Below, piece after piece: positions 4,963-30,869 of a DNA stretch of 33,322 nucleotides. Position numbers and translations under genes: made by a program. The notes beneath the pieces are model-generated. The model worked only from the letters and a program-made list of their open reading frames with translations, had not been told where the DNA came from and did no database searches. Positions within the stretch are counted from its first letter, which is position 1, and every line of letters begins with the position of its first letter. The stretch comes from a candidate division KSB1 bacterium (GTDB taxonomy: Bacteria > Zhuqueibacterota > JdFR-76 > DREG01). The stretch is from NCBI GenBank assembly GCA_022566355.1, contig JADFJB010000043.1, positions 1-33,322 on the forward strand, in the 5' to 3' direction.

Positions 4963-6033
4963 TCAATTATTGTTTTTACGCCATGACGGATGTGTTATTG
5001 AAAATTGAGAAACTTTATAGTTCAATACACGAGATGATATTCCTAATATGGCTGCTGCATTCTTTTGTACATAATTACAGGTTTCCAGGGCTTTGAGAAT
5101 CACTTGTTTTTCTGCCTCTTCAAGTTTCAATGTTTTTAAAGTCAGGACTCCGTTTTCTCTATTTCTACGATCTTTTCCTCCTGCAGCGAAATATTCCTCA
5201 CCCTTCATTGGCAATTCATAAGGCGTGATTTCACAATTATCTTCTGTAAGCAGTACCGCCCGTTCGACCAAATTTCGTAATTCCCTGATATTGCCATTCC
5301 AATTAAGGTTTTTCATCAATTTGACGGTTTCATTTGAAAATCCGGGTATGTTTTTCCTTAATTCACGAGAAAATTTTCTCAGGAAAAAATCCGCTATTAA
5401 TGGTATATCTTCGAGTCTTTCTCGAAGCGGCGGTATATGAATATTGACCACATTAATCCTGTAGAATAAGTCGGCCCTAAATTTACCTTCTGCAATAGCC
5501 TGATCAATGTCATGGTTGGTTGCGCTTATAATCCTGACATCAACTTTAATGCTTTTATTGCCCCCTACCCTGGTGAATTCTTGATTCTGTAAGACACGCA
5601 ATATTTTTGCTTGCGTCGATATCTCCATATCACCAATTTCATCAAGAAAAAGAGTCCCCTTATCCGCCATTTCAAATTTTCCAGGACGTGCCTGGTAAGC
5701 CCCGGTAAAAGCTCCCCTTTCGTGGCCAAACAACTCACTTTCCAGTAAGTTTTCAGGCAAGGCAGCACAGTTTACTTGAACATATGGAGAAGTAGACCTT
5801 GGACTAATAAACTGGATTAAATTAGCGATTAGTTCTTTACCTGTTCCAGTCTCCCCTTGAATAAGAACGCTGGCATTGCTCTTTGCAACCTTTTTAATAA
5901 GCGCAAAGATCTCTTTCATTTGTTGGCTTTTACCCACTAAAGGGTAATGATTATCAAAGCCTAATTTTTTCCAGTCTTTGCCATTTTGGTCTTTTTCCGC
6001 GTTATTTTTGGATTCTTTCAATATACTCTTCAT
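4963..6033 (-). CDS. Stand-alone sigma-54-dependent transcriptional activator (AAA+ and Fis-type HTH)
   Basis: The protein (356 aa) is a bacterial enhancer-binding protein that remodels the sigma-54 RNA polymerase using ATP. The AAA+ domain spans about residues 30-265: Walker A GETGTGKE (60-67), the sigma-54 contact loop GAFTGA (107-112), Walker B GTLFLDE (126-132), and the arginine-finger region FRADLFYRIN. The C-terminal end (about 305-345) is a Fis-type HTH (NAAAILGISSRVLNYKV). The N-terminal 30 residues are polar and contain no receiver, PAS or GAF domain, so there is no built-in sensor, as in PspF. GAAGGG nine bases before the ATG supports the start. Targets are unknown and no clear -24/-12 promoter was found nearby. 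The gene appears monocistronic. Confidence 0.92.
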   Translation of the reverse strand: MKSILKESKNNAEKDQNGKDWKKLGFDNHYPLVGKSQQMKEIFALIKKVAKSNASVLIQGETGTGKELIANLIQFISPRSTSPYVQVNCAALPENLLESELFGHERGAFTGAYQARPGKFEMADKGTLFLDEIGDMEISTQAKILRVLQNQEFTRVGGNKSIKVDVRIISATNHDIDQAIAEGKFRADLFYRINVVNIHIPPLRERLEDIPLIADFFLRKFSRELRKNIPGFSNETVKLMKNLNWNGNIRELRNLVERAVLLTEDNCEITPYELPMKGEEYFAAGGKDRRNRENGVLTLKTLKLEEAEKQVILKALETCNYVQKNAAAILGISSRVLNYKVSQFSITHPSWRKNNN

Positions 6034-6220
6034 AATTAAAACCCTTCTAACATACCCTCACTCACCACCTCACTTCCTAAATTGTTATCGGATTTTTTGA
6101 GCAAACATTAAGTTACAACATGAGATTGATTTGAAATGATACAATTCAGTCTAAACCCGACAAAAATAGCCCTTTTATTATCAGAATAATCAAGAAAGGC
6201 ACGCCTCTATCCCCCTTGTT

Positions 6221-6988
6221 TTATTTATTTTTGAGTTGTAGAATGCGTGGAAGTTCGAGCTTGGATTTTAGCAATAAATTTGTATTAGAAAAAAAGTTTT
6301 CTTTGGTTCCATCAAAAACGATTTTTCCTTTATCCAAAGCAATAACACGATGAACCAATTTGTAAATGAAATCCATATCATGGGATGCAATAATTACAGT
6401 TCGATTTTGATCGTGAAATTTATTGACTAGCTTGCATATGATTTGAATTCCCGAATAATCCAGGGCAGAAGTTGGTTCATCAAGAATGATGATTTCCGGT
6501 TCCATAACCAGGATACTGGCAATCGCAACCCGTCTTTTTTGACCCTCGCTTAACTTAAATGGAGATTGCTTTTTTTCATCAACAGAATTCAATTCCAGTA
6601 AGTTAAGGACATTTTCAATTTTAGCGTGGATTTCGTCTTCTGCCATACTGCAATTCCGCAATCCAAAAGCAATTTCATCGAAAATGGTGTTTTCAAAAAA
6701 TTGCATTTCCGGAAACTGGTTCACAAGTCCAATCTTTTGTGGCAAATTTTGAGTTGCCTTCACTTTGCTAGATAGAGTCTGGCCTTCAAGTAAAACTTGT
6801 CCATTAGCGGGCTTCAAAAGTCCTTTCATAACCTGAATTAGAGTTGTCTTTCCTGAACCACTTGCGCCTACGATTCCAATTAACTCACCCTGTATGACCG
6901 TTAAACTAATATTAGATATTGTATCAATAGAATTTTTCTGACCCAATCCCTGGTATTTGAAAAAGATATTTTTTAGTTCAAGTATCAT
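6221..6988 (-). CDS. ecfA2: ECF-type transporter ATPase, second subunit
   Basis: ABC ATPase of the CbiO/EcfA family (255 aa) that would power vitamin or metal-ion uptake with a T component and a substrate-binding S component. Seen: Walker A GASGSGKTT (41-49), Q-loop Gln91 in VNQFPEMQ, signature LSEGQ (146-150), Walker B IIILDEP with catalytic Glu171, H-loop His203. The signature has Glu where LSGGQ is usual. The start overlaps the stop of ecfA1 by four bases (ATGA), so the two are translationally coupled and presumably form a heterodimer. No ecfT follows. The next gene, after a 187-bp gap, is the sigma-54 activator. The substrate cannot be told. Confidence 0.87.
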   Translation of the reverse strand: MILELKNIFFKYQGLGQKNSIDTISNISLTVIQGELIGIVGASGSGKTTLIQVMKGLLKPANGQVLLEGQTLSSKVKATQNLPQKIGLVNQFPEMQFFENTIFDEIAFGLRNCSMAEDEIHAKIENVLNLLELNSVDEKKQSPFKLSEGQKRRVAIASILVMEPEIIILDEPTSALDYSGIQIICKLVNKFHDQNRTVIIASHDMDFIYKLVHRVIALDKGKIVFDGTKENFFSNTNLLLKSKLELPRILQLKNK

Positions 6989-7740
6989 TCAAAAACCGGA
7001 TCAGCTAAATACTCTACCGGAGCCCCTATCCCTAATTCACACAGCTTTGTTGAATTTTTAAAAACACTGTCCGGGTTGTCATCAAATAGTATTTTCCCGT
7101 TTGACAAAATCAATAAACGATCTGTATAAAATGTTTCAGCCGGATATTGGGTAATTAAAATTGATGTGATCTGTTGAAATGGATACTTATTTTTCTTGAA
7201 TATATAGTCCAAAACCATTCTCCTGGAAAATGGATCCAACAGTGAGGTTGGTTCATCTAAAATTAAGTAAGAAGGCGCCATTGCCAGTACCGAAGCCAGC
7301 GCCAACAATTGTTTTTCTCCGCCGGATAACTTGTTTGGTGAATGGTTTCTGAAATGCTCGAGGTTGAATACTTTGAGAAACTGATTCACATTTGCATGCA
7401 TCTTATCAGGATCAACCTTGAGGTTTTCCAGGCCAAAAGCTATTTCCCGCTCAACCGTTGTACTAACAATTTGATTGTCCGGGTTTTGGAAAACTATGCC
7501 AACTTTTTTACGGATATTTTGGATTTCTTCCTGATTCGTGGTATTCAGACCATCCACAAGAACATCTCCCTGGTTGGGTATAAGTAGGCCATTTAAACAT
7601 TGTGCCAAAGTACTTTTACCAGACCCATTGCTACCCATGATACTTACGGACTCCCCTTTCTGAATCGATAAAGATAATTCATTGAGAACGAATTGAGAAC
7701 TATCTGAATATGAGAATGATAGGTTTTTGCAGCTTATCAT
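6985..7740 (-). CDS. ecfA1: ECF-type transporter ATPase, first subunit
   Basis: ABC ATPase (251 aa) of the CbiO/EcfA family. Walker A GSNGSGKST (36-44), Q-loop FQNPDNQ (84-90), signature LSGGE (138-142) and Walker B YLILDEP with Glu163 are intact. The H-loop position carries Gln198 (ILITQYPAE) instead of the usual His. The FQNPDNQ motif is typical of ECF ATPases rather than general ABC exporters. It lies 11 bases after waaA and overlaps ecfA2. It has no clear ribosome binding site of its own and probably depends on coupling to waaA. Confidence 0.87.
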   Translation of the reverse strand: MISCKNLSFSYSDSSQFVLNELSLSIQKGESVSIMGSNGSGKSTLAQCLNGLLIPNQGDVLVDGLNTTNQEEIQNIRKKVGIVFQNPDNQIVSTTVEREIAFGLENLKVDPDKMHANVNQFLKVFNLEHFRNHSPNKLSGGEKQLLALASVLAMAPSYLILDEPTSLLDPFSRRMVLDYIFKKNKYPFQQITSILITQYPAETFYTDRLLILSNGKILFDDNPDSVFKNSTKLCELGIGAPVEYLADPVFE

Positions 7741-7751
7741 AGAGGATTATT

Positions 7752-9056
7752 CTATTCGGTTGATTCCAGCATGGTTAAAATTTTTTGGCTGATTCTTTCT
7801 GTCGCTCCTTGATTCTCTTCGACAAGATTTCGTGCTCTCTTACCTGCTTCTTTACAACTATTTCGATTCGAAAAAAATCCACATAAATGAAAGTAAATAT
7901 CATCGGAATTTCGAACCAAAAATCCGGCTTCTCGCTTTTGTAACTCCAGTGCATCCGGTGAATTCAAAATACGCGGACCAAAAAGTACGGGAATTCCATG
8001 CGCTGCCGGCTCCATAACATTGTGTACACCAGGGCCGAAACTACCCCCAACAAATGCCACATCTCCATAAAAATACAAATTGGCAAGAAGACCCATTTTA
8101 TCTACGATCAATATTTGATGGTTCGATAATTCCTGATCCCTTTTTTCATATGAAAATAAAATCGGTCTAATCCCAGCCGATGAAAATTGACTGGCTAACT
8201 CATTCAAATGATTTTCTTTTAGTTCGTGGGGGACCAAGATCACAAACAAATCGGTAAATTTTTTGAACATTTGAATCAGGGCCGGGATAAGGTGCTTCTC
8301 ATCAGAAGCCCACGTACTTCCAGCGACAAAAACCATTCGACCTTGCAATGCTTGTTCGGATATTAATTCTGATTTTATTGATTCGTTAGCCCGGTTTAGT
8401 ACCTGATCATACCTTGTGTCACCAAGAATTTGAATACCTGACTTAACTGGTAAAATTCGATTGAACCCATCAGCATCGAATTGACTTGCGGGAGCAATAA
8501 AATTTATACTAGAAAAAGAAGCTTTAAAGAAATTTCGAACGAGAGGCATCGTCATCTTTGAATCACCCGGCATAGTGCCGTTTACTAACATTGATGGAAT
8601 TTTTCTACTCGATAATGCCCACACCAGGTTTGGCCAGACATCATGTTTTGAAATTACTAATAATTTTGGCTTTAACATATTTAAAAATTTCCGAATCGAT
8701 GGGATTGTATCAAAGGGCAGGTAGATTTTTAAGTTATAATCCGATTTTGAATTTACGTTTTCAAATCCAGAAGGTGAAAAAAAGCTAACAACAATTGAAT
8801 AATCCGATTTTTTTTCTCTGATCGTTCTTAATACAGGTCTAATTTGTTCAAACTCACCCATTGAGGCACAATGAAATAAAATACACTTCTTTTTATTTTG
8901 TTGATCCGAGATATAAGAACTTAGTATTGGCAATGAATTTTTACGTCCGTGTAAGCCTTGCTTAACTTTGGGGCTGAATAAAGCTGCAACATATGCGCCA
9001 ATGTAAATGATTGGAATTACAAAAATATTGTAGATTATGAACCAGAATATCTTCAT
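7752..9056 (-). CDS. waaA: 3-deoxy-D-manno-octulosonic acid transferase (Kdo transferase)
   Basis: WaaA/KdtA transfers Kdo from CMP-Kdo to lipid A precursor at the cytoplasmic face of the inner membrane. The 434-aa length is usual. An N-terminal membrane anchor (residues 1-27) is followed by the glycosyltransferase N domain with HCASMGEFEQ, which holds the family's catalytic Glu (Glu68 here), and SKHDVWPNLVW. The CMP-Kdo-binding half has AGSTWASDE and FVGGSFGPGVHNVMEPAA. Its presence implies an LPS-type outer membrane. It leads the operon waaA-ecfA1-ecfA2. No Shine-Dalgarno sequence is seen. The five bases between the ATG and 9062 abut an inverted-repeat element, which supplies the whole leader. 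Confidence 0.95.
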   Translation of the reverse strand: MKIFWFIIYNIFVIPIIYIGAYVAALFSPKVKQGLHGRKNSLPILSSYISDQQNKKKCILFHCASMGEFEQIRPVLRTIREKKSDYSIVVSFFSPSGFENVNSKSDYNLKIYLPFDTIPSIRKFLNMLKPKLLVISKHDVWPNLVWALSSRKIPSMLVNGTMPGDSKMTMPLVRNFFKASFSSINFIAPASQFDADGFNRILPVKSGIQILGDTRYDQVLNRANESIKSELISEQALQGRMVFVAGSTWASDEKHLIPALIQMFKKFTDLFVILVPHELKENHLNELASQFSSAGIRPILFSYEKRDQELSNHQILIVDKMGLLANLYFYGDVAFVGGSFGPGVHNVMEPAAHGIPVLFGPRILNSPDALELQKREAGFLVRNSDDIYFHLCGFFSNRNSCKEAGKRARNLVEENQGATERISQKILTMLESTE

Positions 9057-11515: not shown

Positions 11516-12490
11516 CTAACTACTTCGAACTGCAACAAACTCCACTATATCTTCGAGGGATCTTTTGTAATCACTTTCCGGAAAAGGGGCAATTATAGAT
11601 AAAGCTTTCTCAATGAATTCGTTAGCACGCTCACGTGCATAATCAACACCACCTGAATTAATAACCAGGTTTTTTATTTCATCCACATCTTTTTCTGTTT
11701 TATTCTTATCTATAAAATTTTGCAGTTTAGAGGAATTAATTTTACCATTTTTATTAATGGTATAAATTAATGGGAGGGTAATTTTATTTTGCTTTAGGTC
11801 ATTCCCGCCGGGTTTTCCGGTTATATCTTCATCTCCGATATAATCCAGTAAATCATCCTGAATTTGGAAAGCACATCCCAGGTAATTTCCAAAATCCCAG
11901 AATCGATCCGAGTCTATACCATTATAGTTTGATCCGACAATAGCACCTATTTGGCAAGATGCAGATATTAGTGAAGCCGTCTTATCGGAAATCATTTGGA
12001 AATAGCTTTGTTCATCAGTTTGCAAATTTTGACTTTGCTGTACTTGCAATAGCTCACCTTCACTCATTCGAGTAGTAACTTTTGCCAGGACTTTATTAAT
12101 CTCGGGAGCTTCAAGATTCATCATTTTATTGAGTGCTTGTGCAAAAAGAAAATCACCAACCAGTACAGCAATCTTATTATTCCAAACCGAATGAACACTG
12201 GCTCCGCTTCGTCTTAAATTGGATTGATCGACCACATCATCATGGATCAGGGTTGCTGTATGGATTAATTCAATAATCTGGGCAGCTTCAAAACCATTGT
12301 CATCTAAGTTACCCATTAACCTGGCGATAAGAAATACTAATCCGGGCCTAAGGCGCTTCCCCTTATGCGCTGCAATGTATAGAATCACTTCATTCAGCAA
12401 TTCAACTTTGGTTTCTAAAGATTGGAGAAATTTTTCCTCAAAGTGCTGAAGATCATGTTTAACCGGCAGTATAATTCTAGATAATTCCAC
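11516..12490 (-). CDS. Long-chain all-trans polyprenyl diphosphate synthase
   Basis: The 324-aa isoprenyl synthase condenses isopentenyl diphosphate onto an allylic primer to make a quinone side chain (octaprenyl or heptaprenyl type). Seen: GKRLRPG (44-50), first Asp-rich motif DDVVDQSNLRR starting at 84 and second Asp-rich motif DDLLD (212-216), followed by GKPGGNDLKQNKITLPL. Residues just before the first motif are small (HTATLIH), with no bulky chain-stopping residue, which favours a long product over farnesyl or geranylgeranyl diphosphate. It stands alone, with 192-bp gaps on both sides. The exact chain length cannot be read from sequence. Confidence 0.9.
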   Translation of the reverse strand: MELSRIILPVKHDLQHFEEKFLQSLETKVELLNEVILYIAAHKGKRLRPGLVFLIARLMGNLDDNGFEAAQIIELIHTATLIHDDVVDQSNLRRSGASVHSVWNNKIAVLVGDFLFAQALNKMMNLEAPEINKVLAKVTTRMSEGELLQVQQSQNLQTDEQSYFQMISDKTASLISASCQIGAIVGSNYNGIDSDRFWDFGNYLGCAFQIQDDLLDYIGDEDITGKPGGNDLKQNKITLPLIYTINKNGKINSSKLQNFIDKNKTEKDVDEIKNLVINSGGVDYARERANEFIEKALSIIAPFPESDYKRSLEDIVEFVAVRSS

Positions 12491-12682: not shown

Positions 12683-13048
12683 TTAAATAAGCATATTAAT
12701 GGTTTTAATTAAATTATCGAAGTCAATCGGTTTGACTATATAGTTTTCAACCCCTAGTTTTGTCAAATCTTGTAAGACCTGGATTCCTGCGCCGGACATT
12801 ACAATTAACCTGGATATAGGTATGAGTTCTTTAAGTGATTCGATCAGCTTAAACCCATCTATACCAGGCATGATTAAATCCGTAAGAATGACTGAAAACT
12901 GCTTTTTTTGTGCGAGTTGTAATGCGGAATTACCACTATTACAAGCAGTAACTTTATAACCCCGACGTTCAAAAAGTTCCTGGAGAAGAGAAAGGATTTC
13001 AGGTTCGTCCTCAACTACAAGAATCTCAATGGGTTTGGTTTTTTTCAA
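12683..13048 (-). CDS. Single-domain response regulator (receiver only)
   Basis: A 121-aa CheY-like receiver. Acidic pair Glu13/Asp14, phospho-acceptor Asp57 (ILTDLIMPG), Ser85 at the conserved Thr/Ser position and Lys106-Pro107 (YIVKPID) are all present, so it should be phosphorylatable. There is no output domain. It is the last gene of a four-gene signalling operon, 15 bases after the receiver-PAS kinase, and probably acts as a phosphate shuttle or by protein contact. Confidence 0.9.
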   Translation of the reverse strand: MKKTKPIEILVVEDEPEILSLLQELFERRGYKVTACNSGNSALQLAQKKQFSVILTDLIMPGIDGFKLIESLKELIPISRLIVMSGAGIQVLQDLTKLGVENYIVKPIDFDNLIKTINMLI

Positions 13049-13063
13049 CTAATGCTTCTTTCA

Positions 13064-14866
13064 TTAGCACGATTTTCCGTTTGTCGGCAACTTAACTGTA
13101 AAGACAGTTCCCTTTCCTTCAGTGCTTGTTACTGATATTTCCCCGCCTTCACGCTTAATGATGGAGTGGGAAACATACATTCCCAGGCCGGTTCCTTCAC
13201 CCAAAGCTTTCGTTGTAAAAAATGGCGTGAATATATTTTTTATATGGTCTTTTGGAATGCCGTAACCTGTATCTCCAATTTTTATTTTTACCCAATTATC
13301 CACTAAATCCGTATTAATTTGTAATACTCCCCCATCCGGCATTGCATGAATCGCATTGATTATGATATTTAGAAAAACTTGCTTTAACGAATCTAATCCC
13401 AGGTAGACATTTTGAACACTGCCATAGTGTTTTATCACTTCAATATTCTGTGAATGTAAATCTTTCTCAATAAGGGAAAGGGTTTTGTCGATTGTTTTGT
13501 TGATATCAATTCTTTCTTGATCTTTAGGAGAATGCCTGGAAAACTCCAGAAGATTATTAATGATATTCGATGCACGTTTAACGTTTCGTTTTATGATCTC
13601 CAATTTAGAATTAATATCGTCATTACCGTTTTCCAAAACATCAGAAATACAATATCGTGCTGTTTCGATTATATTGAGCGGATTTCTTAATTCATGAGCT
13701 ACACCAGATGCCAATAGCCCTATAGTAGCTAATTTTTCAGATTGAATAAGCGAGCGCTCAATATTTTTCTGGTCAGTGACATCATGGCTATATTCAATGA
13801 TGTTTTCAAGCTGGCCTTCCAAATCAAACATTGGGTATGTCCATACGTGGAATACCTTCTCATTCCTGGAAATTTCCGAAAATTCTGAACTTTTACTTAT
13901 AAATGTTCTATTTATTACTTCTTCATCAACTGGCAAACTGAGTGAAACAAGCTTATCACATTCCATCCCTAGCACCTTCTCAGGCGTTGTATTTAACAAA
14001 CTCGCAACTTTTTCATTTGCCATCACTACTGTTTTTTCAAGGTCAAAAACTAAAATGTTATCCGTAATTCCATCAAACATAGCTTGGAGCTTTTTTTTGC
14101 TTTCTTTTATCAAACGGTGGAGATACAAAATTTCTGTAAGATCTTTGGCAATACCAATAATTTTTTGATTACTGTCTTTTTCTTGAAGGATTGAAAAAGA
14201 AAGTACAAAATTTAAGATTTTTCCCTTTTTGTCTTTGAATTCAAATTCATAGTTCCCTTCACTAGGCTGTCTTAGGATCTGGGATACCGATGCATGATCG
14301 TGCCGGTCTGACAGTAAGATGAAAAATGGTTTCTGTAAAACTTCCTTTTCCTTATATCCTAATTTGGAAATCTGAGGATTTACAAATTGAATATTAAATT
14401 CGCTATCCAGGGAAAAAATGAAATCATCAGCTTTCTCAACAATACTACCCAGGAATTCTTCTTTTGCGCGAAGTTGCTGCTGTAACCGCTCTCTAACGAT
14501 AACCGCTTCGATCACTTTCGGGAGTGATGAGAGATAATTCCCTTCCTTTATCACATAATCCGCCGCACCGTTTTTCATGGCTTCAACAGCTACTTTTTCA
14601 TCCCCTTGAGCAGTAATAATAATCACAGGGTATCTTATATTGAGTTTGCGTAATTTGATTAAAACATCCAAGCCGGAGTAATCCGGTAATTTATAATCCA
14701 AAATTACAGCATCATAATAATTTTCTTTACATTGTTTAATACACTCTTTGCCCACATAAGAAAATGTTGTTGAAAATTTATTCGATTTTTTCGAAAAAGT
14801 AATTCGCATTAATTCTACTTGATCCGGATTATCCTCAACAATAAGTATTTTATAAGCCATTACCAC
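13064..14866 (-). CDS. Soluble hybrid sensor histidine kinase: receiver-PAS-PAS-HisKA-HATPase
   Basis: 600 aa. Receiver at residues 5-122 with Asp57 (VILDYKLPD), Thr85 and Lys107, where the usual KP is KE. PAS1 about 138-255, PAS2 about 262-375. The H-box HELRNPLN gives phospho-accepting His391. The ATPase has the N-box IINAIHAM, G1 DTGYGIP, F-box FTPFFTTK and G2 GEGTGLGM. No membrane segment is seen, so sensing is cytosolic. An N-terminal receiver means that phosphate from another kinase can control this one, which fits its place behind two more kinases in the operon. GTG at 14866 lies seven bases after AAAGGA. An in-frame ATG at 14860 is the alternative start. Confidence 0.9.
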   Translation of the reverse strand: MVMAYKILIVEDNPDQVELMRITFSKKSNKFSTTFSYVGKECIKQCKENYYDAVILDYKLPDYSGLDVLIKLRKLNIRYPVIIITAQGDEKVAVEAMKNGAADYVIKEGNYLSSLPKVIEAVIVRERLQQQLRAKEEFLGSIVEKADDFIFSLDSEFNIQFVNPQISKLGYKEKEVLQKPFFILLSDRHDHASVSQILRQPSEGNYEFEFKDKKGKILNFVLSFSILQEKDSNQKIIGIAKDLTEILYLHRLIKESKKKLQAMFDGITDNILVFDLEKTVVMANEKVASLLNTTPEKVLGMECDKLVSLSLPVDEEVINRTFISKSSEFSEISRNEKVFHVWTYPMFDLEGQLENIIEYSHDVTDQKNIERSLIQSEKLATIGLLASGVAHELRNPLNIIETARYCISDVLENGNDDINSKLEIIKRNVKRASNIINNLLEFSRHSPKDQERIDINKTIDKTLSLIEKDLHSQNIEVIKHYGSVQNVYLGLDSLKQVFLNIIINAIHAMPDGGVLQINTDLVDNWVKIKIGDTGYGIPKDHIKNIFTPFFTTKALGEGTGLGMYVSHSIIKREGGEISVTSTEGKGTVFTVKLPTNGKSC

Positions 14867-14924
14867 CCATAATTCCTTTCAAAATAAAACTACCACTTCA
14901 CATCTTAGTCAATAAAACTTAAAT

Positions 14925-17900
14925 TCAGGAACCGCTTTTAGGGATTGAAAAATAGAAACACGTTCCTCTGCCTTTTCGGGATTCAAGCCAAACACGACCA
15001 TTGTGTTTTTCGATAATTTTCTTAACGATGGTCAAACCCACGCCGGTTCCTTCTACCCCTTCAATTTCTTTTAAGGACTGAAACAGTTCGAATATCTTGT
15101 CATGAAATTTTTTTTCTATCCCAATTCCATTATCTCTTACGAAAAATAAAAAGAAATCATCATCTATTTTATGTCCGATTTCAATCTTTGGATTCGGATT
15201 ATCTCCAATGTATTTAATCGCATTATCAATTAAATTTGTAAAAACTTGTTGAATGCGATCCCAGTCACAATTCATCTCAGGAAAATCATTCGGATATTGG
15301 ATCTTTATTTCTTTTTTTTGAATTTGAAACTGTAGATTGGAAATTGTTGTTTTTACAATTTCATTAATATCAATCATTTCAAAGGGAGTTGCGATACGAC
15401 CTATTTTTGAAAGCTCCAATAAATCCTGGATGAGGTTTTCCATTTGCTTAATATTTGCATTGATCCTGTCTAGATAATGGATCCCCTCAGGATCGAGCTT
15501 ATCGCTAAATTCACTTTTAAGAATAGTTGAAAATCCCAATATTGAAACGATAGGCGATTTAAGATCATGCGAAACCGAAAAAACAAAATTTTCAAGCTCC
15601 TCATTCACCTGCGATAACTTCTCCGAATTTATTTTAGTCTCTTCAAACAAACGGGCATTTTCAATTGCACTCGCTAATTGACTTGCTAAAGCCTCAAAGG
15701 CATAAAGATCCCGCTTGTCGAAGCCTTTTTTTCTATCCGAATAGAGACATAAGCATCCGTTCACCCGCTCAACAATTTTCAGAGGAATGCACAACAAGGA
15801 TCCTGCAGCAGGAAATCCGTTTTCTAATTCTCCTTCACTGGTAAAATCTTTGATCATTGTGGTTTCTGCCGTGCGAATGGTAAGAGCAATTGGATTCCGT
15901 TGATGTTGATCTACAAATTCAATTTTAGGAATTTTTGAACTTACACCTGACTGGGATTGTAATGTGGCAGATTTCGTCTCTCGATCGACGAGGTAGACTG
16001 ACACTGAATTATAATTAAAAATATCTTGAATCGATGCAGTCACGGTTTTCAACAATTTGTCGGGATCAAGTGTGGAAGAAATCTTCTTTCCAACTTCATT
16101 AACCATGGCAAGCTGGGCTGCCCGTCGTCTTTCGCTTTCATATAACCTGGCGTTTTCTATAGCAATTGCAGCTTGATTTGCAATGGTATCCAAAAGTTTA
16201 ATTTCTCGGTCATCAAAGCGATGGATTTCATCTTTGTAAACCCCAAGCACTGCGATGGTTTTGCCACGTGAAATTACCGGCACTCCAAGATAAGATCGGA
16301 GATTGCTTGCTGGCAAGGAATTTGATAAAATGCTATTTTTTGAATTATCTCCATGCAAATCTTCAATAACTAGGGGTCGTTGTTCTTTAATAATTTTCTC
16401 TACTTTAGGCCATAAAGAAAATTCCATAGTAGAAGATGTATCATTTACATCTGAGGAAAAACGGCTGGGAGTATTCACTTCACCAACAAACCAGATAGTA
16501 CATATTTTAGCGTACATTACCGTAGCCGCGGCTTTAACGATTAAATCTAAAACCTCCCTAATATTCAAGCTCGAAGATATGGTCTTGCTTACGTCTTCAA
16601 GAGCTGAAAGCTCTTTTAGTCTTAACTTTGCTTCTTGATACAATTTGGCATTTTCAAGTGCGGTTGCAACTTGTCCGGCGATTTGTTTAAATAGTGTTTG
16701 TTGTGTATTGTTATAAGCATTAAGCTCAACTTTACCGATACTAAATGTCCCCAGGTACTTATCTTTAGAAAGCAAAAGAACATTTATTTTTGATTGTAAT
16801 TGATTCTCGATCTCTAATTTCGTTTCGTATACTGAATCCTGAATATTCTCTGAATTTTGTATGTTTTTCTTACAATCGGGTGATAAATTCAACCATCCAA
16901 CCGATGATCCCCTTAACCTATGCCAATATCCTTTTTGTAATCTCCTTCCAATTTGCTCGGAAACAAGACAGAAGATATTCAAATTATCACTATCTTCATC
17001 AAATAACGAAATTGACATATAGTCGAAATTAATAATTTTCTTTACTTCAAAGGTAACGGTTTCGATAACTTCCTTAAGTTCTAAGCTTGAATTGATTGAA
17101 TTTGTAATTTCGTTAATTGCTGATATTTGATCAGCTTTTTCCTGGTAATCTTTGTAGAGGCGGGCATTTTCAATAGAAATAGAAAGATATGTAATGGCAG
17201 TCCTCAGGAAATCGATCTCATCTTCGGTAAATTTTTTCGGCTTGTCATAATAAACATTAAAAACGCCAACCGAAATATCTCTCGGAATCATGGCTAAAGA
17301 AAGTAATGCTCTATAGCCGATCCTTTCCGCAATGGGCCGCCATTGACTAAAGCTATCTTCAGTTAGAATGTTCTCAACTTTTAAAGTTTTATTCTGTTCA
17401 TTTACTAAATCGTAAGGACCTTCTTCAATTCCGATACGCCAGGGTTGATCAATAAGTTGAATTTTATCTGGTGGAGTTTTATGAGCCTTATACATCTTCA
17501 ATCCACCAACCTCATCTTTGAGAAAAATTGAAACAAAACTTGCATTACAAACAGAAGCTATTTTCAGCATCGTTAAATCGATAATTTCATCAAGATTCAA
17601 TGCGGATGCTATGGTCTGGCCAACCTCCATTAAAGCCAATAGTTCTTCATTTCTTTTGGTGTTATCACTTTGGACTTGATCTTTCAAGTCATGATAATAG
17701 GCGATGCAATATTGTTTGTAAAAATTTTCTTCTTCTTGAACCAACCTACAAAGCCGAATGTCGACCATGACTTTCCAGCCATTTTTTTGAATAAGCGCAA
17801 ACTCATTAATCTCGGTTTGATGCTCAAATTCCAATCTTTGTATTTCCAGGAACAACAATGGTAATTCATCCGGTTGATGTAAATCATCGATACTTAGTTT

Positions 17901-18113
17901 TTCGAGCTCCGATTTTGTATATCCGGTTAGATTTGCAGCTGTTTGGTTGGCTCTAATTATATCCCGGGAATTAGCATCGATAACAAATATGCCTTCTTCT
18001 ATATTTTCCAAAAAATGGAAAAACCGGTTGAGATAGTCCTTTACAGAGAAATTCTTTTGTTTTTCCGAAAGCACCCCTAATGTTTCCCGTTCTAAGTCAA
18101 TTTTTTGCTTCAC
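14925..18113 (-). CDS. Soluble multi-GAF sensor histidine kinase: PAS-GAF x4-HisKA-HATPase
   Basis: 1062 aa. PAS about 30-145 (IFVIDANSRDIIRAN), then four GAF domains at roughly 165-318, 335-490, 507-656 and 672-822, each ending in a coiled signalling helix with the repeated element IENARLY or close (ENAKLY, ENARLF). Kinase: H-box SVSHDLKSPI with His849, N-box FTNLIDNAIKY, G1 DNGIGIE, G2 GTGVGLTI. No membrane segment and no chromophore-binding Cys pattern are seen, so ligands are unknown (small molecules or redox are typical for GAF). The kinase core closely resembles that of the upstream 18153-19769 gene, suggesting duplication. Gaps of 39 and 58 bases to its neighbours indicate one operon. 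Confidence 0.9.
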   Translation of the reverse strand: MKQKIDLERETLGVLSEKQKNFSVKDYLNRFFHFLENIEEGIFVIDANSRDIIRANQTAANLTGYTKSELEKLSIDDLHQPDELPLLFLEIQRLEFEHQTEINEFALIQKNGWKVMVDIRLCRLVQEEENFYKQYCIAYYHDLKDQVQSDNTKRNEELLALMEVGQTIASALNLDEIIDLTMLKIASVCNASFVSIFLKDEVGGLKMYKAHKTPPDKIQLIDQPWRIGIEEGPYDLVNEQNKTLKVENILTEDSFSQWRPIAERIGYRALLSLAMIPRDISVGVFNVYYDKPKKFTEDEIDFLRTAITYLSISIENARLYKDYQEKADQISAINEITNSINSSLELKEVIETVTFEVKKIINFDYMSISLFDEDSDNLNIFCLVSEQIGRRLQKGYWHRLRGSSVGWLNLSPDCKKNIQNSENIQDSVYETKLEIENQLQSKINVLLLSKDKYLGTFSIGKVELNAYNNTQQTLFKQIAGQVATALENAKLYQEAKLRLKELSALEDVSKTISSSLNIREVLDLIVKAAATVMYAKICTIWFVGEVNTPSRFSSDVNDTSSTMEFSLWPKVEKIIKEQRPLVIEDLHGDNSKNSILSNSLPASNLRSYLGVPVISRGKTIAVLGVYKDEIHRFDDREIKLLDTIANQAAIAIENARLYESERRRAAQLAMVNEVGKKISSTLDPDKLLKTVTASIQDIFNYNSVSVYLVDRETKSATLQSQSGVSSKIPKIEFVDQHQRNPIALTIRTAETTMIKDFTSEGELENGFPAAGSLLCIPLKIVERVNGCLCLYSDRKKGFDKRDLYAFEALASQLASAIENARLFEETKINSEKLSQVNEELENFVFSVSHDLKSPIVSILGFSTILKSEFSDKLDPEGIHYLDRINANIKQMENLIQDLLELSKIGRIATPFEMIDINEIVKTTISNLQFQIQKKEIKIQYPNDFPEMNCDWDRIQQVFTNLIDNAIKYIGDNPNPKIEIGHKIDDDFFLFFVRDNGIGIEKKFHDKIFELFQSLKEIEGVEGTGVGLTIVKKIIEKHNGRVWLESRKGRGTCFYFSIPKSGS

Positions 18114-18152
18114 TATTTCGTTTGTTTAATTTATTTCTATCTATCGATAGAA

Positions 18153-19769
18153 TTAGTTGTTATTTACCTTCGGTAAAGTGAAATGGAAAATTGTGCCTTG
18201 CCCTGGTTTTGATTCCACATAGATTTGACCACCATGGTCTTCAATAATTTTTTTTGTAACAGCCAGGCCAATACCGGTTCCTTCCACATGTTCCATTTGT
18301 TTTGTCCGGTAAAAAGCATTGAATATTTCCTCCTGGTCAGATACCGGAATACCGACGCCATTATCCTTAACAAAAAATTCAAATTCACCCGAACGGCGTT
18401 TTACACCAATTTCGATCACTGCTTGCTTACCATTGCCATGGAATTTGATTGCGTTGCTAATTAAATTGGTAAAGACCAATTTAAGATTTTTTGAATGGCA
18501 GACAATCTTTGGGAAACGATCCGGCAAAATTAGTTTTATCTTCTTATTCTCAATCTGGTATCGAAATTCTTCTACAGCTTCTTTCACAATTTTGCCAATA
18601 GACTCATTACTTGTCTCAGTATCTACTTTACCAACCCGTGATAATTCCAACAAATCCTGGATCATCTTTTCCATTAACTCAATGTTGGCGACCAATCGGT
18701 CAAAGTAATGCTTATTCGTATTCGAAAAATTTTTATAGACTTCTTGTTTCAACAACGAAGCATATCCCAGGACAGAGACAATTGGGGATTTAAGATCATG
18801 TGAGACAGAATATACAAATTCTTCCAGTTCTTTTTTCTTCTGGATTAATCTTTTTTCAGCCAGGAAAAGTGAGGTTTTATCCCTGAAAATCCATAGTAAG
18901 ATTTCTCTTTTTTTACTTCCATGAAGAGGTAAACTTGAGATAGATAATTCCAGCTGCAGAATTCTTTTCGGTGAAAGTTGGATAGGTATTTCATAATTAA
19001 TTAACAATCCCTTATTCCTTACTTTCTGAATCGCAAGTTCCAACATAGATTCTTTTGAACGGTCCAACTGGAAAATATCACTACCAATTAAAGAATAAAT
19101 CTTACGTCTAAATAATTGGATAGCTTGTTTGCTGGCATACAATATTTTCCCCAATTTATCTGTGACAAAAATTGAATCTGTAGTAAATTCAACGACACTT
19201 TGAATCAGTCTTTTTAGCTCTTTTATATCTTCATCAAGAACTGAATTGTATAACATATAAGCAAAGAAATCACCTAAGCTCAATAATTTATTTTGCCTAA
19301 CAGTCCCTATGCTGTTGGTACGATTATAAAACACACTAAGGATGCCAATCACCGGTCTGTCTCTGTTCATCAAAGGAATAATTGCACAGCTCTTGAAGCC
19401 TTCGTCCAACCAGAGTTTTTTTCGGCTTTTAGGTATATTGGGATCCTTTTCGATGTCTTGAAATATCCACGGTTCTCTTTTAGGCAACCAGGATCGAATT
19501 CTCCGGTCGATGGGTAAGTTTTCTCTTCGTAATGATAAATTCTTATATCCTAAAGCCACACCTGAAGTAAGCTTGTCTTCCTCGACCATTCTAACGCTAC
19601 ATGCCCGCGCTTGCATTGATTTTTTAACAATTTCCAATAGATCCGACATAAAAAGGTCCCGATTGAAAAAGATATCTGTCTGCTGTAGGAAAACATTAAA
19701 AAGCGGGCCTTGCTCTTCTAATGTGGACAATTCCGAATATTGATTACTTGATTGGGTAGGTTTTTTCAT
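18153..19769 (-). CDS. Soluble sensor histidine kinase: GAF-PAS-HisKA-HATPase
   Basis: 538 aa. GAF about residues 30-180 (FKSCAIIPLMNRDRPVIGIL is the typical GAF core), PAS about 187-305, H-box SVSHDLKSPI with phospho-accepting His324, N-box FTNLISNAIKF, G1 DNGVGIP, G2 GTGIGLAV. It has no membrane segment. It is the first gene of the four-gene signalling operon. The 256 bp upstream are AT-rich, and I could not fix a promoter there. Its kinase module is very similar to that of the 14925-18113 gene (SVSHDLKSPIVS and IQDLLELS are shared), so the two are paralogues that could phosphorylate the same receivers. Confidence 0.9.
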   Translation of the reverse strand: MKKPTQSSNQYSELSTLEEQGPLFNVFLQQTDIFFNRDLFMSDLLEIVKKSMQARACSVRMVEEDKLTSGVALGYKNLSLRRENLPIDRRIRSWLPKREPWIFQDIEKDPNIPKSRKKLWLDEGFKSCAIIPLMNRDRPVIGILSVFYNRTNSIGTVRQNKLLSLGDFFAYMLYNSVLDEDIKELKRLIQSVVEFTTDSIFVTDKLGKILYASKQAIQLFRRKIYSLIGSDIFQLDRSKESMLELAIQKVRNKGLLINYEIPIQLSPKRILQLELSISSLPLHGSKKREILLWIFRDKTSLFLAEKRLIQKKKELEEFVYSVSHDLKSPIVSVLGYASLLKQEVYKNFSNTNKHYFDRLVANIELMEKMIQDLLELSRVGKVDTETSNESIGKIVKEAVEEFRYQIENKKIKLILPDRFPKIVCHSKNLKLVFTNLISNAIKFHGNGKQAVIEIGVKRRSGEFEFFVKDNGVGIPVSDQEEIFNAFYRTKQMEHVEGTGIGLAVTKKIIEDHGGQIYVESKPGQGTIFHFTLPKVNNN

Positions 19770-20025: not shown

Positions 20026-21045
20026 TCAGCTATTGATGTGATGGTAGTTACAGATTATTTCTTTGAATTCTTCAATCACGTTATTCAACGGCCGCCTGAC
20101 TAACGCTCCGGAAGCATAAGGATGCCCACCACCCCCGAAGGATTGGGCTAATTCATTAATTGAAATCGAACCATTTGAACGAAAACTAATTTTGGTTAAA
20201 GACTCCTCAATCTCTAAAAAGAGAATGCTGACTTCAACATTTGCAATCCGCCTGGAAAAATCTGATAATCCATCCGTTTCGGATGGAGCAAGGTCATATT
20301 TTTTCAACATCGCCCTGGTAATTGAGCACCAGGCAACTTTGGAATCACATTCAAACTGTATATTTGAAAGAATATCAGCTAGTAATTTAATTTTGCCTAA
20401 GGGTTCTTGCTCATAAACTTCCCGGTAAATCTTATAAGTATCTATATTTTGCTCAATGAGAATACCAGCCATTTTATGGCTATTCACCGTAGTATTTGAA
20501 AAGCGAAAACCTCCGGTATCTGTGAGGATAGCCGTATACAATGCTGAAGATATTTCCTTTGAAAACTCGACTCCCAAAGCATCTAATAAAAGAAAAACTA
20601 TTTCTCCTGTTGATGAAGCGTTGGGATAATTGATATTTATAGCGCCAAATTTCTCCTTAGATGGATGATGGTCAATACAAATAATTGGAATTTCATGTTT
20701 TCTTAAATCAGCACCAAGCTTTCTCAACCGATCCCATTCGCTTACATCAAATACAAAGCAGCACTGGGCCCGAGTTATAATTGATTCATGTTCAATTGAA
20801 CTGTAGTCTGTTATAATATTATCATGGTTCAAAAAATCATACTGCCTTGGAACAGGATTGTGATTAAATATATTAACCTGCTTACCTCTTTCTTTGAGTG
20901 CATAATATAATCCCAACTCACTACCCAAGCCATCTCCGTCCGGGTGAACATGTGTCGTCAAAATAAATTTGTCATTATTTTCAATGAGATGTTTAACCGC
21001 TTCGATTTCATCCGATTTTAAATAATTATCGAGTTCTAAATGCAT
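20026..21045 (-). CDS. nrnA: DHH-family oligoribonuclease / pAp phosphatase, NrnA-like
   Basis: 339 aa. NrnA-type enzymes degrade nanoRNA dinucleotides to mononucleotides and dephosphorylate 3'-phosphoadenosine 5'-phosphate (pAp) in the cytoplasm. Seen: motif I HVHPDGD (32-38), an Asp in VFDVSEWD (near 100), the DHH signature (125-127, IDHHPS), and the C-terminal DHHA1 substrate motif GGGGHPYASGA (from 304). All expected metal ligands appear present. It is the last gene of the tatC-dcd-PHP-MBL-nrnA run, 38 bases after the MBL gene. The alternative, a different DHH phosphoesterase such as RecJ or a cyclic-di-AMP hydrolase, is less likely because of the short length and the motif set. Confidence 0.9.
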   Translation of the reverse strand: MHLELDNYLKSDEIEAVKHLIENNDKFILTTHVHPDGDGLGSELGLYYALKERGKQVNIFNHNPVPRQYDFLNHDNIITDYSSIEHESIITRAQCCFVFDVSEWDRLRKLGADLRKHEIPIICIDHHPSKEKFGAININYPNASSTGEIVFLLLDALGVEFSKEISSALYTAILTDTGGFRFSNTTVNSHKMAGILIEQNIDTYKIYREVYEQEPLGKIKLLADILSNIQFECDSKVAWCSITRAMLKKYDLAPSETDGLSDFSRRIANVEVSILFLEIEESLTKISFRSNGSISINELAQSFGGGGHPYASGALVRRPLNNVIEEFKEIICNYHHINS

Positions 21046-25129: not shown

Positions 25130-25722
25130 TATCATTCCTTACAAGAAAAAACCAAAGAAATTGACAAAGGAGCATTTGGAATTTATGGTAATTAGATGTG
25201 GAGCTATAGAAATTTTCATATTGGAATATATGGAAATAAGAGATCGACAAGTTTAAATTTTCTCACATTAAAAAAGAATGACCTTATTTATGTGTTTAGC
25301 ATGCCAGAGAATACTTCAGTCTCTGACTTCAAAAGGAGTTTACTAAAAAGTAATTGTTCAACATTCAAGAAATTCAGATTATCCAATGGACGAAACCCAC
25401 AAAGAGGGCTTTAATAAACTTTAATTCAATGGATGGAGATAAATTAAAAATTCCGCTAATAAACAGGGATGATTATTGAGCACTATCGAAATTAACATCC
25501 TTAATGTCAGAGGAGTTCGTGAATATTCTTGAGAAAAATAGAGATATTGTTCTGGACAATTTCTCAAACTCTATCTACTCTTCTTGGTAAAAATGGTCTT
25601 TTTTAGATTCCTTCATCGGGAATAACTACTACTTACTTATGTCATTGATTGGTCATAGTCTGATTATGCAATCGTGCCTAAGTACTCTTGTTCATAAATA
25701 CGGTGACGTAAAATCATGCTGA
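25130..25722 (+). pseudogene. Unrecognised degraded coding sequence
   Basis: Protein-like reading frames on the plus strand are broken by stops and a frame change. One frame has a TAG at about 25193, then reads on from ATG 25196 to TAA 25412-25414 (72 residues, with NDLIYVFSMPENTSVSDFK). A second frame from about 25429 runs to 25722 through TGA 25477-25479 and TAA 25588-25590 (MSEEFVNILEKNRDIVLDNF, later YYLLMSLIGHSLIMQSCL). The composition is that of a real protein, but I recognise no family. An AAAGGAG near 25167 precedes a short ATG frame, so a translation start once existed. Its 3' end overlaps the tail of the IS630 remnant. Confidence 0.4.
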
Positions 25723-26184
25723 TAATTTTAATGAAACAGGTTCAACTTCAGTCAATTTCCTCATTAATTTTGCCAAATCATTTTTATTGAATTTCCATTC
25801 AAAAGGTTTGGCTATATTTTGATAATATCTTTGAAAATCAAATATCGTTTTTCTTAATTGTTCTTTAGAAGTAAAATAATTAGGTGTCAAAATTTTTCGT
25901 TGAATGATTGAAAAATAGATTTCAATTTGATTTAACCAACTTGCATGAATTGGCAAATGAACCAAAACAATTTGAGGCCACTTTTCTTTTGTTCTATTAA
26001 CGGAGGATTGACCTCTATGCGAGGAACCATTATCAACAATCCAAAAGATTTTTCGTGCAGAGCAATAGGGTTCTTTGGACATTACATCGGACACAAGGCG
26101 TTCAAACGGTTTTATACCCGTTTTTTCTTCACAGCGTCCGAAAATTTTGGCACGATTGATATCCCAAGCTGCTATGTAATTCAA
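25714..26184 (-). pseudogene. IS630-family transposase, C-terminal remnant
   Basis: 156 residues from a TTG start represent only the second half of an IS630 DDE transposase: NYIAAWDIN, then Asp51 in WIVDNGSSHRG, ASWLNQIEIY with Glu88, and the tail KPFEWKF. The first catalytic Asp and the N-terminal HTH region are missing. In the same frame upstream, a TGA near 26203-26205 separates HRRGSL from any earlier sequence. I found no clear terminal inverted repeats. It is an inactive insertion-sequence relic that marks this part of the window as recombined. Confidence 0.75.
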
Positions 26185-29416: not shown

Positions 29417-30865
29417 TCATTTTTTTGCGATTGTTGATTTACCTGATCCTGATAATCCGGTTAACCATATTACAACTGCCTTATGGCTGTTCTTCTCTTC
29501 CCGCTTGTTAAGAGGTACGGCAATTTCTTCTCTTGTCACATTAGTTGCCCGATCTACAACACCCGCAACGCTCAATTCCGACTCAAGTGTTTCTTCAAGG
29601 CTTCGTAATGGTTCCCTTATCATACCTACCGCAACTGTAAAATTAGTGTCAGGGTCAATCAAAATAAAACTACCTGTCCCGCGATTTTTATTGTAGCTGT
29701 CAAACATTATCGGCTGCGTCGCATTTATCTCTATGCGGCCAATCTCATTTAACCCTAAAGTCTTGGCTTCTTTACGGTGGAGAGTGTTTACATCAATCAT
29801 ATAATCTAATTTACTGACAAAAGCCTTGGTTGTTTTTGTTGAATGTTTGATAAGATAGTTTTTTCCTATTTGTAAAGGTTCGTCCCACATCCAGCAAATA
29901 ATAGCGTCAAAATTTCTATTGATCTGCGGAATGTTGTGCTCCCGAACAATCATATCCCCTCTACTAATGTCAATCTCATCTTCAAGGGTCAGGATTACCG
30001 AAAACGGCGCGCTTGCTTCCTCAAGATTACCATCAAAAGTAACAATCTCTTTAATTTTTGATCTTTTGCCTGACGGTAATATTGCCACCTCTTCGCCCAC
30101 CGCAATAGTACCCGAAACAATCTTTCCCGCGTAACCACGAAAATTAAGATCAGGCCTGATCACATATTGCACCGGAAACCTGAAATCTACAAGGTTGAGA
30201 TCAGAACTGACATGCACATTTTCCAAAACATGCAGAAGTGTAGGCCCGTCATACCAAGGAGTATTGGAACTTTGGACAACAACATTATCTCCTTTAAGCG
30301 CTGATAGAGGAATGTATGTGATGTCGTTTATTTCAAGTTTTCGGGAGAATTCATCATACTCGTCAACTATTGACTGGTATACATCCTGCGAATAATCAAC
30401 CAGATCCATTTTGTTGACGCCTACCACCAAATGAGGCACCTGTAAAAGACTGGCTATAAAACCATGTCTTTTTGATTGTTCTAAAATTCCATTACGGGCG
30501 TCAATAAGAATTATTGCAAGGTTTGCAGTGGAAGCTCCGGTCACCATATTACGTGTGTACTGAACGTGTCCGGGTGTATCTGCGATAATAAATTTCCGTT
30601 TAGACGTCTGGAAATATCGGTATGCGACGTCAATGGTTATTCCTTGTTCACGTTCAGCGGCAAGGCCATCGGTAATAAGCGCCAGATCAACCTCGTCTTC
30701 TCCTTTACGTTTCGCAACCTTTTTAATCGCATCAAGTTGGTCATCATATATATTGTTAGTTTCGGAAAGCAATCTGCCTATCAATGTTGATTTGCCGTCA
30801 TCCACACTGCCAACCGTAGTAAACCTGAGAAGTTCGGCATGTCCTTCATAATGATCAGGTTTCAT
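29417..30865 (-). CDS. cysN: Sulfate adenylyltransferase large subunit, with truncated APS-kinase domain
   Basis: CysN is the GTPase that drives ATP sulfurylase (CysD) to make APS from ATP and sulfate. I choose ATG 30865 (482 aa), four bases after cysD. A longer frame from 30925 lies wholly inside cysD. G1 GSVDDGKST (19-27), switch ITIDVAYRYF, DTPGH and NKMD are intact, followed by the two EF-Tu-type beta-barrels. The last residues, VVIWLTGLSGSGKSTIAKK, are the start of a CysC APS kinase including its P-loop. TGA follows at once. No other frame downstream continues the kinase, so a CysNC fusion (normally about 630 aa) has lost its kinase half by deletion or recombination. Confidence 0.92.
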   Translation of the reverse strand: MKPDHYEGHAELLRFTTVGSVDDGKSTLIGRLLSETNNIYDDQLDAIKKVAKRKGEDEVDLALITDGLAAEREQGITIDVAYRYFQTSKRKFIIADTPGHVQYTRNMVTGASTANLAIILIDARNGILEQSKRHGFIASLLQVPHLVVGVNKMDLVDYSQDVYQSIVDEYDEFSRKLEINDITYIPLSALKGDNVVVQSSNTPWYDGPTLLHVLENVHVSSDLNLVDFRFPVQYVIRPDLNFRGYAGKIVSGTIAVGEEVAILPSGKRSKIKEIVTFDGNLEEASAPFSVILTLEDEIDISRGDMIVREHNIPQINRNFDAIICWMWDEPLQIGKNYLIKHSTKTTKAFVSKLDYMIDVNTLHRKEAKTLGLNEIGRIEINATQPIMFDSYNKNRGTGSFILIDPDTNFTVAVGMIREPLRSLEETLESELSVAGVVDRATNVTREEIAVPLNKREEKNSHKAVVIWLTGLSGSGKSTIAKK

Positions 30866-30869
30866 GCGT

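Follow-up and report, generated by a model that had tools for sequence, protein, structure and literature searches.

A conserved receiver-kinase hub with replaceable partners and a predicted two-tier kinase cascade in a candidate division KSB1 bacterium

Introduction

Where does a phosphoryl group go in a gene cluster that encodes three soluble histidine kinases and a stand-alone receiver, with no output domain among them, and in what order do its kinases act? The question is raised by a locus in the window, by which we mean the whole stretch of 33,322 nucleotides analysed here (contig JADFJB010000043.1 of assembly GCA_022566355.1, from a candidate division KSB1 bacterium). The answer that we favour, to which sequence comparisons lead us to give a probability of about 0.6, is a two-tier cytosolic kinase cascade ending in the lone receiver.

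Results

Four minus-strand open reading frames lie head to tail and are defined here by their reading frames and Pfam matches: K1 (18153..19769), a soluble GAF-PAS histidine kinase of 538 aa; K2 (14925..18113), a soluble PAS-GAFx4 histidine kinase of 1062 aa; K3 (13064..14866), a receiver-PAS-PAS-histidine kinase of 600 aa that forms the conserved hub; and a lone receiver (12683..13048) of 121 aa, which trees further identify as an NtrC-type receiver lacking an output domain, and as a probable substrate of K3. The GAF domain of K1 (PF01590) scores 23.3 bits against a cut-off of 22.4, its PAS domain is weak (PF00989, 21.8 against 22.6), and its kinase core consists of HisKA and HATPase_c. To the same two core domains K2 adds a PAS domain and four GAF_2 stretches, and K3 a receiver and two PAS domains. 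All three kinases retain intact H, N, G1 and G2 boxes, and the cores of K1 and K2 are 47.6% identical over 229 aa, with nearly identical H boxes. The lone receiver consists of a receiver domain only, with neither a sigma-54 AAA+ domain nor an HTH detected by Pfam in its 121 aa. A simple Kyte-Doolittle scan reveals no membrane span in the four proteins (peak 19-residue mean 1.68), which at E<=0.01 also have no Pfam match to the HTH, GGDEF or EAL families, or to the Hpt domain of classical phosphorelays. An earlier note on this DNA had described a four-gene phosphorelay at 13064-19769, a cytosolic module of several kinases with seven or more PAS/GAF modules, two near-identical H boxes, no membrane segment and no output domain. 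Its inventory stands, with nine PAS/GAF modules counted across K1, K2 and K3; the four genes are present, but the lone receiver lies outside that interval.

By their coordinates, successive genes of the cluster are separated by 39, 58 and 15 bases, a spacing compatible with a single transcript; a scan counted 33 promoter-like sites against 38.4 in shuffles, and 11 terminator-like sites against 6.6 (sd 2.8). The arrangement is not a product of chance, because it recurs in relatives. A DHH-DHHA1 phosphoesterase gene upstream (20026..21045) and a polyprenyl synthetase gene downstream (11516..12490), both on the minus strand, are conserved neighbours that serve as flank markers and are not claimed as parts of the pathway.

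Among 82 genomes of the phylum, 46 have a single K3 match at E<=1e-75 (G011, where the cluster extends past the contig end, was entered as K3-negative), and 41 of the 45 mapped copies have the DHH phosphoesterase upstream and/or the polyprenyl synthetase downstream. The window K3 fits the orthologous group so delimited: receiver-PAS-(PAS)-kinase, one strong match per genome, beside one or both flank genes. A scan of a contig collection with K3 returned three distant matches. The H box AHE(L/I)RNP is kept in 44/44 readable copies, the N and G boxes in all readable copies (43/45; G003 and G030 are cut) and the receiver aspartate in 43/44, and helix 1 of the phosphotransfer region is frozen, with E at +10 and R at +13 in every one of 43 readable copies. 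At 37 of the 45 mapped loci no receiver or regulator was found beside K3, so that K3 has either another partner there or none. K3 is the constant hub of the locus, preceded by a sensor slot and followed by a receiver slot, both with exchangeable occupants.

The sensor kinases that precede K3 vary among genomes and are decayed or missing in some. In 31 of the 45 mapped clusters K3 is preceded by a kinase-type gene and no receiver besides that of K3 was found; of these 31, three are degenerate, and contig ends truncate some of the clusters. This count supports kinases acting in series. The receiver trees have few columns and many open forks, and the second of them, in which the K3 receiver does not group with R1, lends no phylogenetic support to transfer from K1 or K2 to K3. 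R1 is a second lone receiver with one receiver domain, located between K2 and K3 in G002, G005 and G006, and not seen in G000 or G001. A likeness in helix 1 between R1 and the K3 receiver was observed and is not counted as evidence. Three points raised by the earlier note are supported by these comparisons: that the kinases act in series through the N-terminal receiver of K3, that gene order is conserved, and that relatives might hold a conserved fifth gene, R1 being such a gene in three of them.

The lone receiver was found in six genomes, all of one order, and is without an output domain in all six. By tree position it is an NtrC-group receiver, sister to the receivers of NtrC-type regulators, and the kinase tree mirrors this placement: the K3 clade (100/98) joins its sister kinases (100/95) at 99/94, and the lone receivers (97/86) join the receivers of those kinases' NtrC-type regulators at 94/89, a join found again in a second receiver tree at 87/80. 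Each of the sister kinases in G000, G001, G002, G005 and G006 is followed by an NtrC-type regulator, and the nearest paralogs of the K3 core and the lone receiver within the same genome are an adjacent kinase and regulator of this kind, for which we take NtrB/NtrC-type to be a suitable name. Since the lone receiver is sister to receivers whose kinases form K3's sister clade, it most probably represents the cognate receiver of K3, minus the sigma-54/HTH part. When a profile of five lone receivers was searched against the 82 genomes, the sixth came first and four of the next five matches directly follow a K3-type kinase; also among these five is the receiver of G061, which belongs to another kind of kinase and counts against the pairing.

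In one family, f20 (G076 and G077), an NtrC-type regulator directly follows K3. The earlier note had counted a DNA-binding regulator in the operon of relatives, lost only here, as evidence against its reading. This objection applies in part: f20 does have one, and the sister kinases are each followed by one, but its absence is not particular to this genome, being common to all six with the lone receiver. The G077 cluster lies away from the DHH/polyprenyl-synthetase site, and the G076 contig is too short to tell. The lone receivers and the two f20 regulators are not firmly joined in the trees: the first puts the regulators with another regulator (91/67), and the second gives 81/46. An ortholog of the f20 regulator was also considered as a phylum-wide partner in trans and rejected, the query matching 82/82 genomes; among the matches listed, G076 (60%) alone is set off from the rest, which start at 51%. 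A broader search for partners in trans took in 20 receiver matches from 19 K3-positive genomes without the lone receiver. Ten of the 20 stretches contained another kinase gene, in no case one with the helix motif of K3, and no kinase gene was seen in the remaining 10; some receivers were masked by longer antisense reading frames, and some stretches stop at contig edges.

Short orphan receivers in three of these stretches (L137, L139, L140) led to TR, an orphan receiver of ~155 residues with a conserved hydrophobic C-terminal tail (G000:C31:7894-8358), in which N133, I140, P141 and W143 are invariant in 18 aligned members and W134 nearly so. Because K3's helix is frozen in copies that mostly have no adjoining receiver, one would expect K3 to have a conserved partner encoded in trans. 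TR is present in 38/46 K3-positive against 6/36 K3-negative genomes (Fisher 1.8e-9, ignoring kinship) and, within the three mixed families only, in 13/16 against 1/5 (p=0.025). At E<=1e-40 it occurs in 40 genomes, in a nearly perfect match to the presence of K3; a profile search then recovered four more full-length members, divergent ones that all come from K3-negative genomes, and the match weakened. TR lies near the sister pair in four of eight TR loci checked, which counts against K3 as its donor, and directly follows another receiver-kinase gene in G077. Other kinases may be its phosphate donor, and the shared occurrence may be a mere reflection of descent; we treat it as a lead and not as a result. 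A tentative and rather doubtful proposition is that K3 is an ancient hub which normally signals through TR, a membrane-tethered receiver encoded elsewhere, and that the window's lone receiver is a later, soluble, second output.

Alternative wirings

Several other wirings could be drawn from the same parts. In a true phosphorelay the K3 core would be mainly a phosphotransfer station, taking its phosphoryl group from a receiver and handing it to the lone receiver, and the order of parts is indeed that reported for the Red locus type, T1-R1R2-T2-R3, whose T2 is described as receiving phosphoryl groups from R1 and as apparently unable to autophosphorylate, in the part of the account available (PMC3018481). 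The retention of N and G boxes throughout K3 leads one to expect an ATP-using kinase instead, and we consider this wiring unlikely. Slightly less likely still is a convergence of parallel inputs, with K1, K2 and K3 all phosphorylating the lone receiver directly and the K3 receiver acting as a phosphate sink. The four genes do form one cluster, and no other free receiver occurs in it besides the lone receiver; however, K1/K2-like kinases also stand before K3 where a cluster contains no free receiver, and K1 and K2 form a clade of their own, separate from K3 and its sister kinases (100/99), whereas the lone receiver tracks the K3/sister side.

The close paralogy between the lone receiver and the sister NtrC-type regulator (L097), on both the kinase and the receiver side, would also suit a buffer, in which the lone receiver competes with or drains phosphate from that regulator elsewhere and the cluster tunes sigma-54 transcription indirectly. 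Such cross-talk seems improbable: the sister kinases have G, N or S at +10 and I or V at +13 of helix 1 in 9/9 cases, against E and R in K3, a difference that suggests insulated pairs. The earlier note named as candidates a partner-switch or chemotaxis-like target and the sigma-54 activator in the window. No partner-switch or chemotaxis family was found among the 27 of 36 window reading frames scanned with Pfam (the other nine are plus-strand). The receiver-less sigma-54 activator at 4963-6033 is a very improbable output; G002, G005 and G006 have its block kdtA-ABC-ABC-activator at the corresponding position, with an activator 63-68% identical, but the AAA+ domain of the window activator begins at residue 32, six genes of other functions separate it from the lone receiver, and G032, outside the order, has K3 with no activator matched in the 30 kb of sequence around it. 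As a direct target it was rejected, having no receiver and a link by position only.

Proposed mechanism and significance

In the two-tier cascade that we prefer, K1 and K2 would sense internal signals through their PAS/GAF domains and autophosphorylate, as their intact boxes suggest; their target, judging from gene context, would be the N-terminal receiver of K3. Together with the two PAS domains, this receiver would tune the kinase core of K3 itself, which would autophosphorylate and then, as the mirrored paralogous pairs imply, phosphorylate the lone receiver (12683-13048). Once phosphorylated, the latter would probably act by binding another protein or by competing for phosphate. Phosphorylation of its receiver may switch K3 either on or off; in the CheA3-CheS3 system such phosphorylation is described as turning the second kinase off (PMC3868531).

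The interest of the locus is threefold: 1) a receiver-kinase hub, with one strong match per genome, keeps its position on the chromosome through much of a phylum, and the sensor kinases and output receiver around it are exchanged, decayed or lost; 2) kinase-in-series wiring, experimentally known in a chemosensory cluster, would also exist in a plain PAS/GAF version; 3) mirrored kinase and receiver trees predict phosphorylation partners, and point to the receiver of a transcriptional regulator surviving alone as output.

Comparison with known systems

The K3 core and the lone receiver resemble NtrB/NtrC-type pairs in that their sisters are a kinase and an NtrC-type regulator encoded side by side, but differ in that the lone receiver is without AAA+ or HTH and K3 carries an N-terminal receiver. 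The RedCDEF locus of Myxococcus xanthus reportedly encodes no DNA-binding output either. Red likewise combines a pair of kinases with stand-alone receivers at a single locus, but its kinases are connected through a separate protein with two receivers (PMC3018481), whereas in the window cluster the connecting receiver is part of K3 itself; no gene for such a separate protein is present in the window cluster, R1 of the three relatives has one receiver, and the boxes of K3 are intact where the second Red transmitter apparently does not autophosphorylate. EpsW, also of M. xanthus, offers a model for output without DNA binding, being described as a lone receiver that acts by protein contact; it differs in being driven by the Dif chemosensory system, with EpsZ as target (PMC12802240, in the part available).

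Closest in wiring is Che3 (CheA3-CheS3-CheY3) of Rhodospirillum centenum, in which, according to the accessible part of the report (PMC3868531), the first kinase phosphorylates the N-terminal receiver of a second, receiver-PAS-type kinase, and only this second kinase phosphorylates a lone receiver without an output domain. Che3 is described there as a chemosensory cluster with MCP, CheW, CheR and CheB, none of which was found in the window cluster or among the 27 of 36 window reading frames scanned with Pfam, and CheS3 as having two receivers and an HWE-type kinase core; the first kinases here are PAS/GAF kinases. Lacking chemosensory parts, the cluster is therefore regarded as Che3-like and not filed as a Che3 member. 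The shared plan is plain in K3, with its N-terminal receiver and PAS domains, and in the lone receiver that follows it, and the predicted cascade would work as Che3 does, minus the chemotaxis parts.

Gene order and surroundings

Three soluble histidine kinases and a receiver-only gene lie head-to-tail on the minus strand: K1 (18153-19769; Pfam GAF-PAS-HisKA-HATPase_c), K2 (14925-18113; PAS-GAFx4-HisKA-HATPase_c), K3 (13064-14866; receiver-PAS-PAS-HisKA-HATPase_c) and the lone receiver (12683-13048; receiver only), with no membrane span detected in any of the four by hydropathy scan. The interval proposed in an earlier note covers the kinases but omits the lone receiver. Upstream genes in the window encode a DHH phosphoesterase, a metallo-beta-lactamase-fold protein, a PHP protein, a dCTP deaminase-like protein, TatC and a transglycosylase; downstream are a polyprenyl synthetase, an epimerase, GT9, a kdotransferase, two ABC ATPases and a receiver-less sigma-54 activator, the last four (4963-9056) retaining their order in G002, G005 and G006. 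Elsewhere in the window are a GTP-binding CysN-like ORF (29417-30925), possibly a shortened or shifted fusion, whose C-terminal match to the APS kinase profile covers profile residues 1-19 only, and a 156-aa fragment of a DDE_3 transposase (25714-26184).

The fifth gene that the earlier note proposed to look for in relatives is present in G002, G005 and G006, where a second lone receiver (R1) sits between K2 and K3. R1 is absent from G000 and G001; a 337-base gap separates K2 from K3 in G003, and in G004 the two sides fall on separate contigs.

Conservation of K3 and the series arrangement

Searching 82 genomes of the phylum with K3 gave a single match per genome at E<=1e-75 in 46, and 45 of these loci were fetched and mapped (G059 was left out, and several stretches stop at contig edges). 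Both flanking genes, DHH phosphoesterase upstream and polyprenyl synthetase downstream, were found at 20 of the 45 loci, DHH alone at 11, the synthetase alone at 10 and neither at four (G034, G076, G077, G079). The H-box motif AHE(L/I)RNP is kept in all 44 readable copies, and the receiver aspartate in 43 of 44, a count that omits the degenerate-looking receiver of G040. The two altered receivers belong to genes at L050:6959-8803 (Asp to Glu in G013) and L062:6952-8418 (G040, where Pfam returned no receiver match), and both may be unphosphorylatable.

The slot before K3 is more variable, holding K1 and K2, a K2-like kinase paired with a short kinase lacking sensor domains, or just one gene (513 to 1025 residues). 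In three genomes of family f7 (G021, at L075:7441-10038, with counterparts in G017 and G009) the upstream protein has a kinase core without recognisable H, N or G boxes; in G021, the one case run against Pfam, GAF and PAS domains were matched and no kinase. No upstream kinase was found in G026, G063, G047 or G064, though the fetched stretch extends to DHH. Outside the window's order, many genomes carry immediately before DHH a protein of ~700 aa with two-component-regulator-propeller repeats (L036:1364-3502 and relatives, labelled G712), which is absent from the window.

Gene context gives good support to the proposal that the kinases act in series. A kinase-model match lies upstream of K3 in 31 of 45 clusters (including the three degenerate f7 proteins, and with some clusters cut by contig ends), with the K3 receiver as the sole receiver found between the flanks, such that the simplest reading makes it the upstream kinase's target. 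Context is a basis for this reading rather than proof, and the receiver scan can miss receivers beneath longer antisense ORFs, as happened in G004. Phylogeny adds nothing here, K3 receivers forming their own clade without grouping with R1.

Partners of K3 and the question of output

Genome-wide, Pfam profiles identified 63 receivers and 33 HisKA domains; a paralog census of fetched regions plus the window yielded 60 receiver and 31 kinase-core matches. Within that census the nearest paralog of the K3 kinase core is a kinase in L097 (44%, 174 bits; next 131). For the lone receiver, the best match within the genome is the NtrC-type regulator adjoining that same kinase (69 bits). Such sister pairs of kinase and NtrC-type regulator occur at L097:9739-11857, L128:1344-3456, L129:3047-5956, L125:71-3015 and L126:3692-6664. 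The sister kinases of G002, G005 and G006 carry an N-terminal receiver, with the regulator directly after; those of G000 and G001 span just ~254 residues, the G001 copy at a contig edge. In a kinase tree sampling 15 of 43 available K3 copies, the K3 clade (100/98) and the sister-kinase clade (100/95) join at 99/94, and in the receiver tree a node at 94/89 unites the lone receivers (97/86) with the receivers of the sister regulators, a grouping recovered in a second tree at 87/80. A profile built from five lone receivers and searched against the 82 genomes next retrieved the sixth, followed in order by G005:C66, G006:C168, G077:C231, G061:C145 and G076:C642; the receivers scored in 75 genomes outside the order add up to ~3,850. 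Four of these five sit directly after a K3-type kinase, and that of G061 after another kind. Paralogy, mirrored trees and profile ranking together point to the lone receiver as the probable partner of K3.

The earlier note also described a relay without output, open to refutation by a DNA-binding regulator in relatives' operon that had been lost only here. This description holds at the locus in the window, but elsewhere the kinase family of K3 has ties to NtrC-type outputs. In family f20 an NtrC-type regulator does follow K3 (G076, G077), a partial refutation on the note's own terms; the output-less lone receiver is common to six genomes (G000, G001, G002, G005, G006 and, beneath an antisense ORF, G004). 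The G077 cluster has neither flank gene nearby, the G076 contig is too short to judge, and the f20 regulators show no firm grouping with lone receivers in receiver trees.

The K3 interval yielded no additional receiver or regulator at 37 of 45 mapped loci (the automatic scan gave 38, from which G004's hidden receiver was deducted). Although so many loci lack one, all 43 readable copies of K3 have E(+10), R(+13) and Y(+14) in helix 1, and a conserved partner in trans is therefore likely; in all nine sister kinases +10 is G, N or S and +13 is I or V. The most promising lead is TR, a ~155-aa orphan receiver (L105:1895-2359, equivalent to G000:C31:7894-8358) whose hydrophobic C-terminal tail is strongly conserved (alignment A2, 18 members; 19-residue mean 2.31). 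Of the 82 genomes, 44 have a full-length TR, strong in 40 and divergent in 4; 38 genomes have both K3 and TR, eight K3 only, six TR only and 30 neither, in a tally that ignores kinship and has no control gene. TR lies near the sister pair in four of eight TR loci checked (G037, G061, G065, G066), and directly after another receiver-kinase gene in G077. The G065 copy is close to CstA-like and phosphoglucose-isomerase-like genes.

Proposed mechanism and precedents

Architecture, conservation, intact catalytic residues and mirrored pairing are established here. On these grounds K1 and K2 would phosphorylate the receiver of K3, K3 would phosphorylate the lone receiver, and the latter would act through protein contact; EpsW is an example of a lone receiver able to act directly on an enzyme (PMC12802240). 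The nearest working precedent is CheA3-CheS3-CheY3 of Rhodospirillum, where the first kinase phosphorylates a receiver of the second, thereby switching it off, and the lone receiver is phosphorylated by the second kinase only (PMC3868531). The Red pathway offers a second analogue (PMC3018481).
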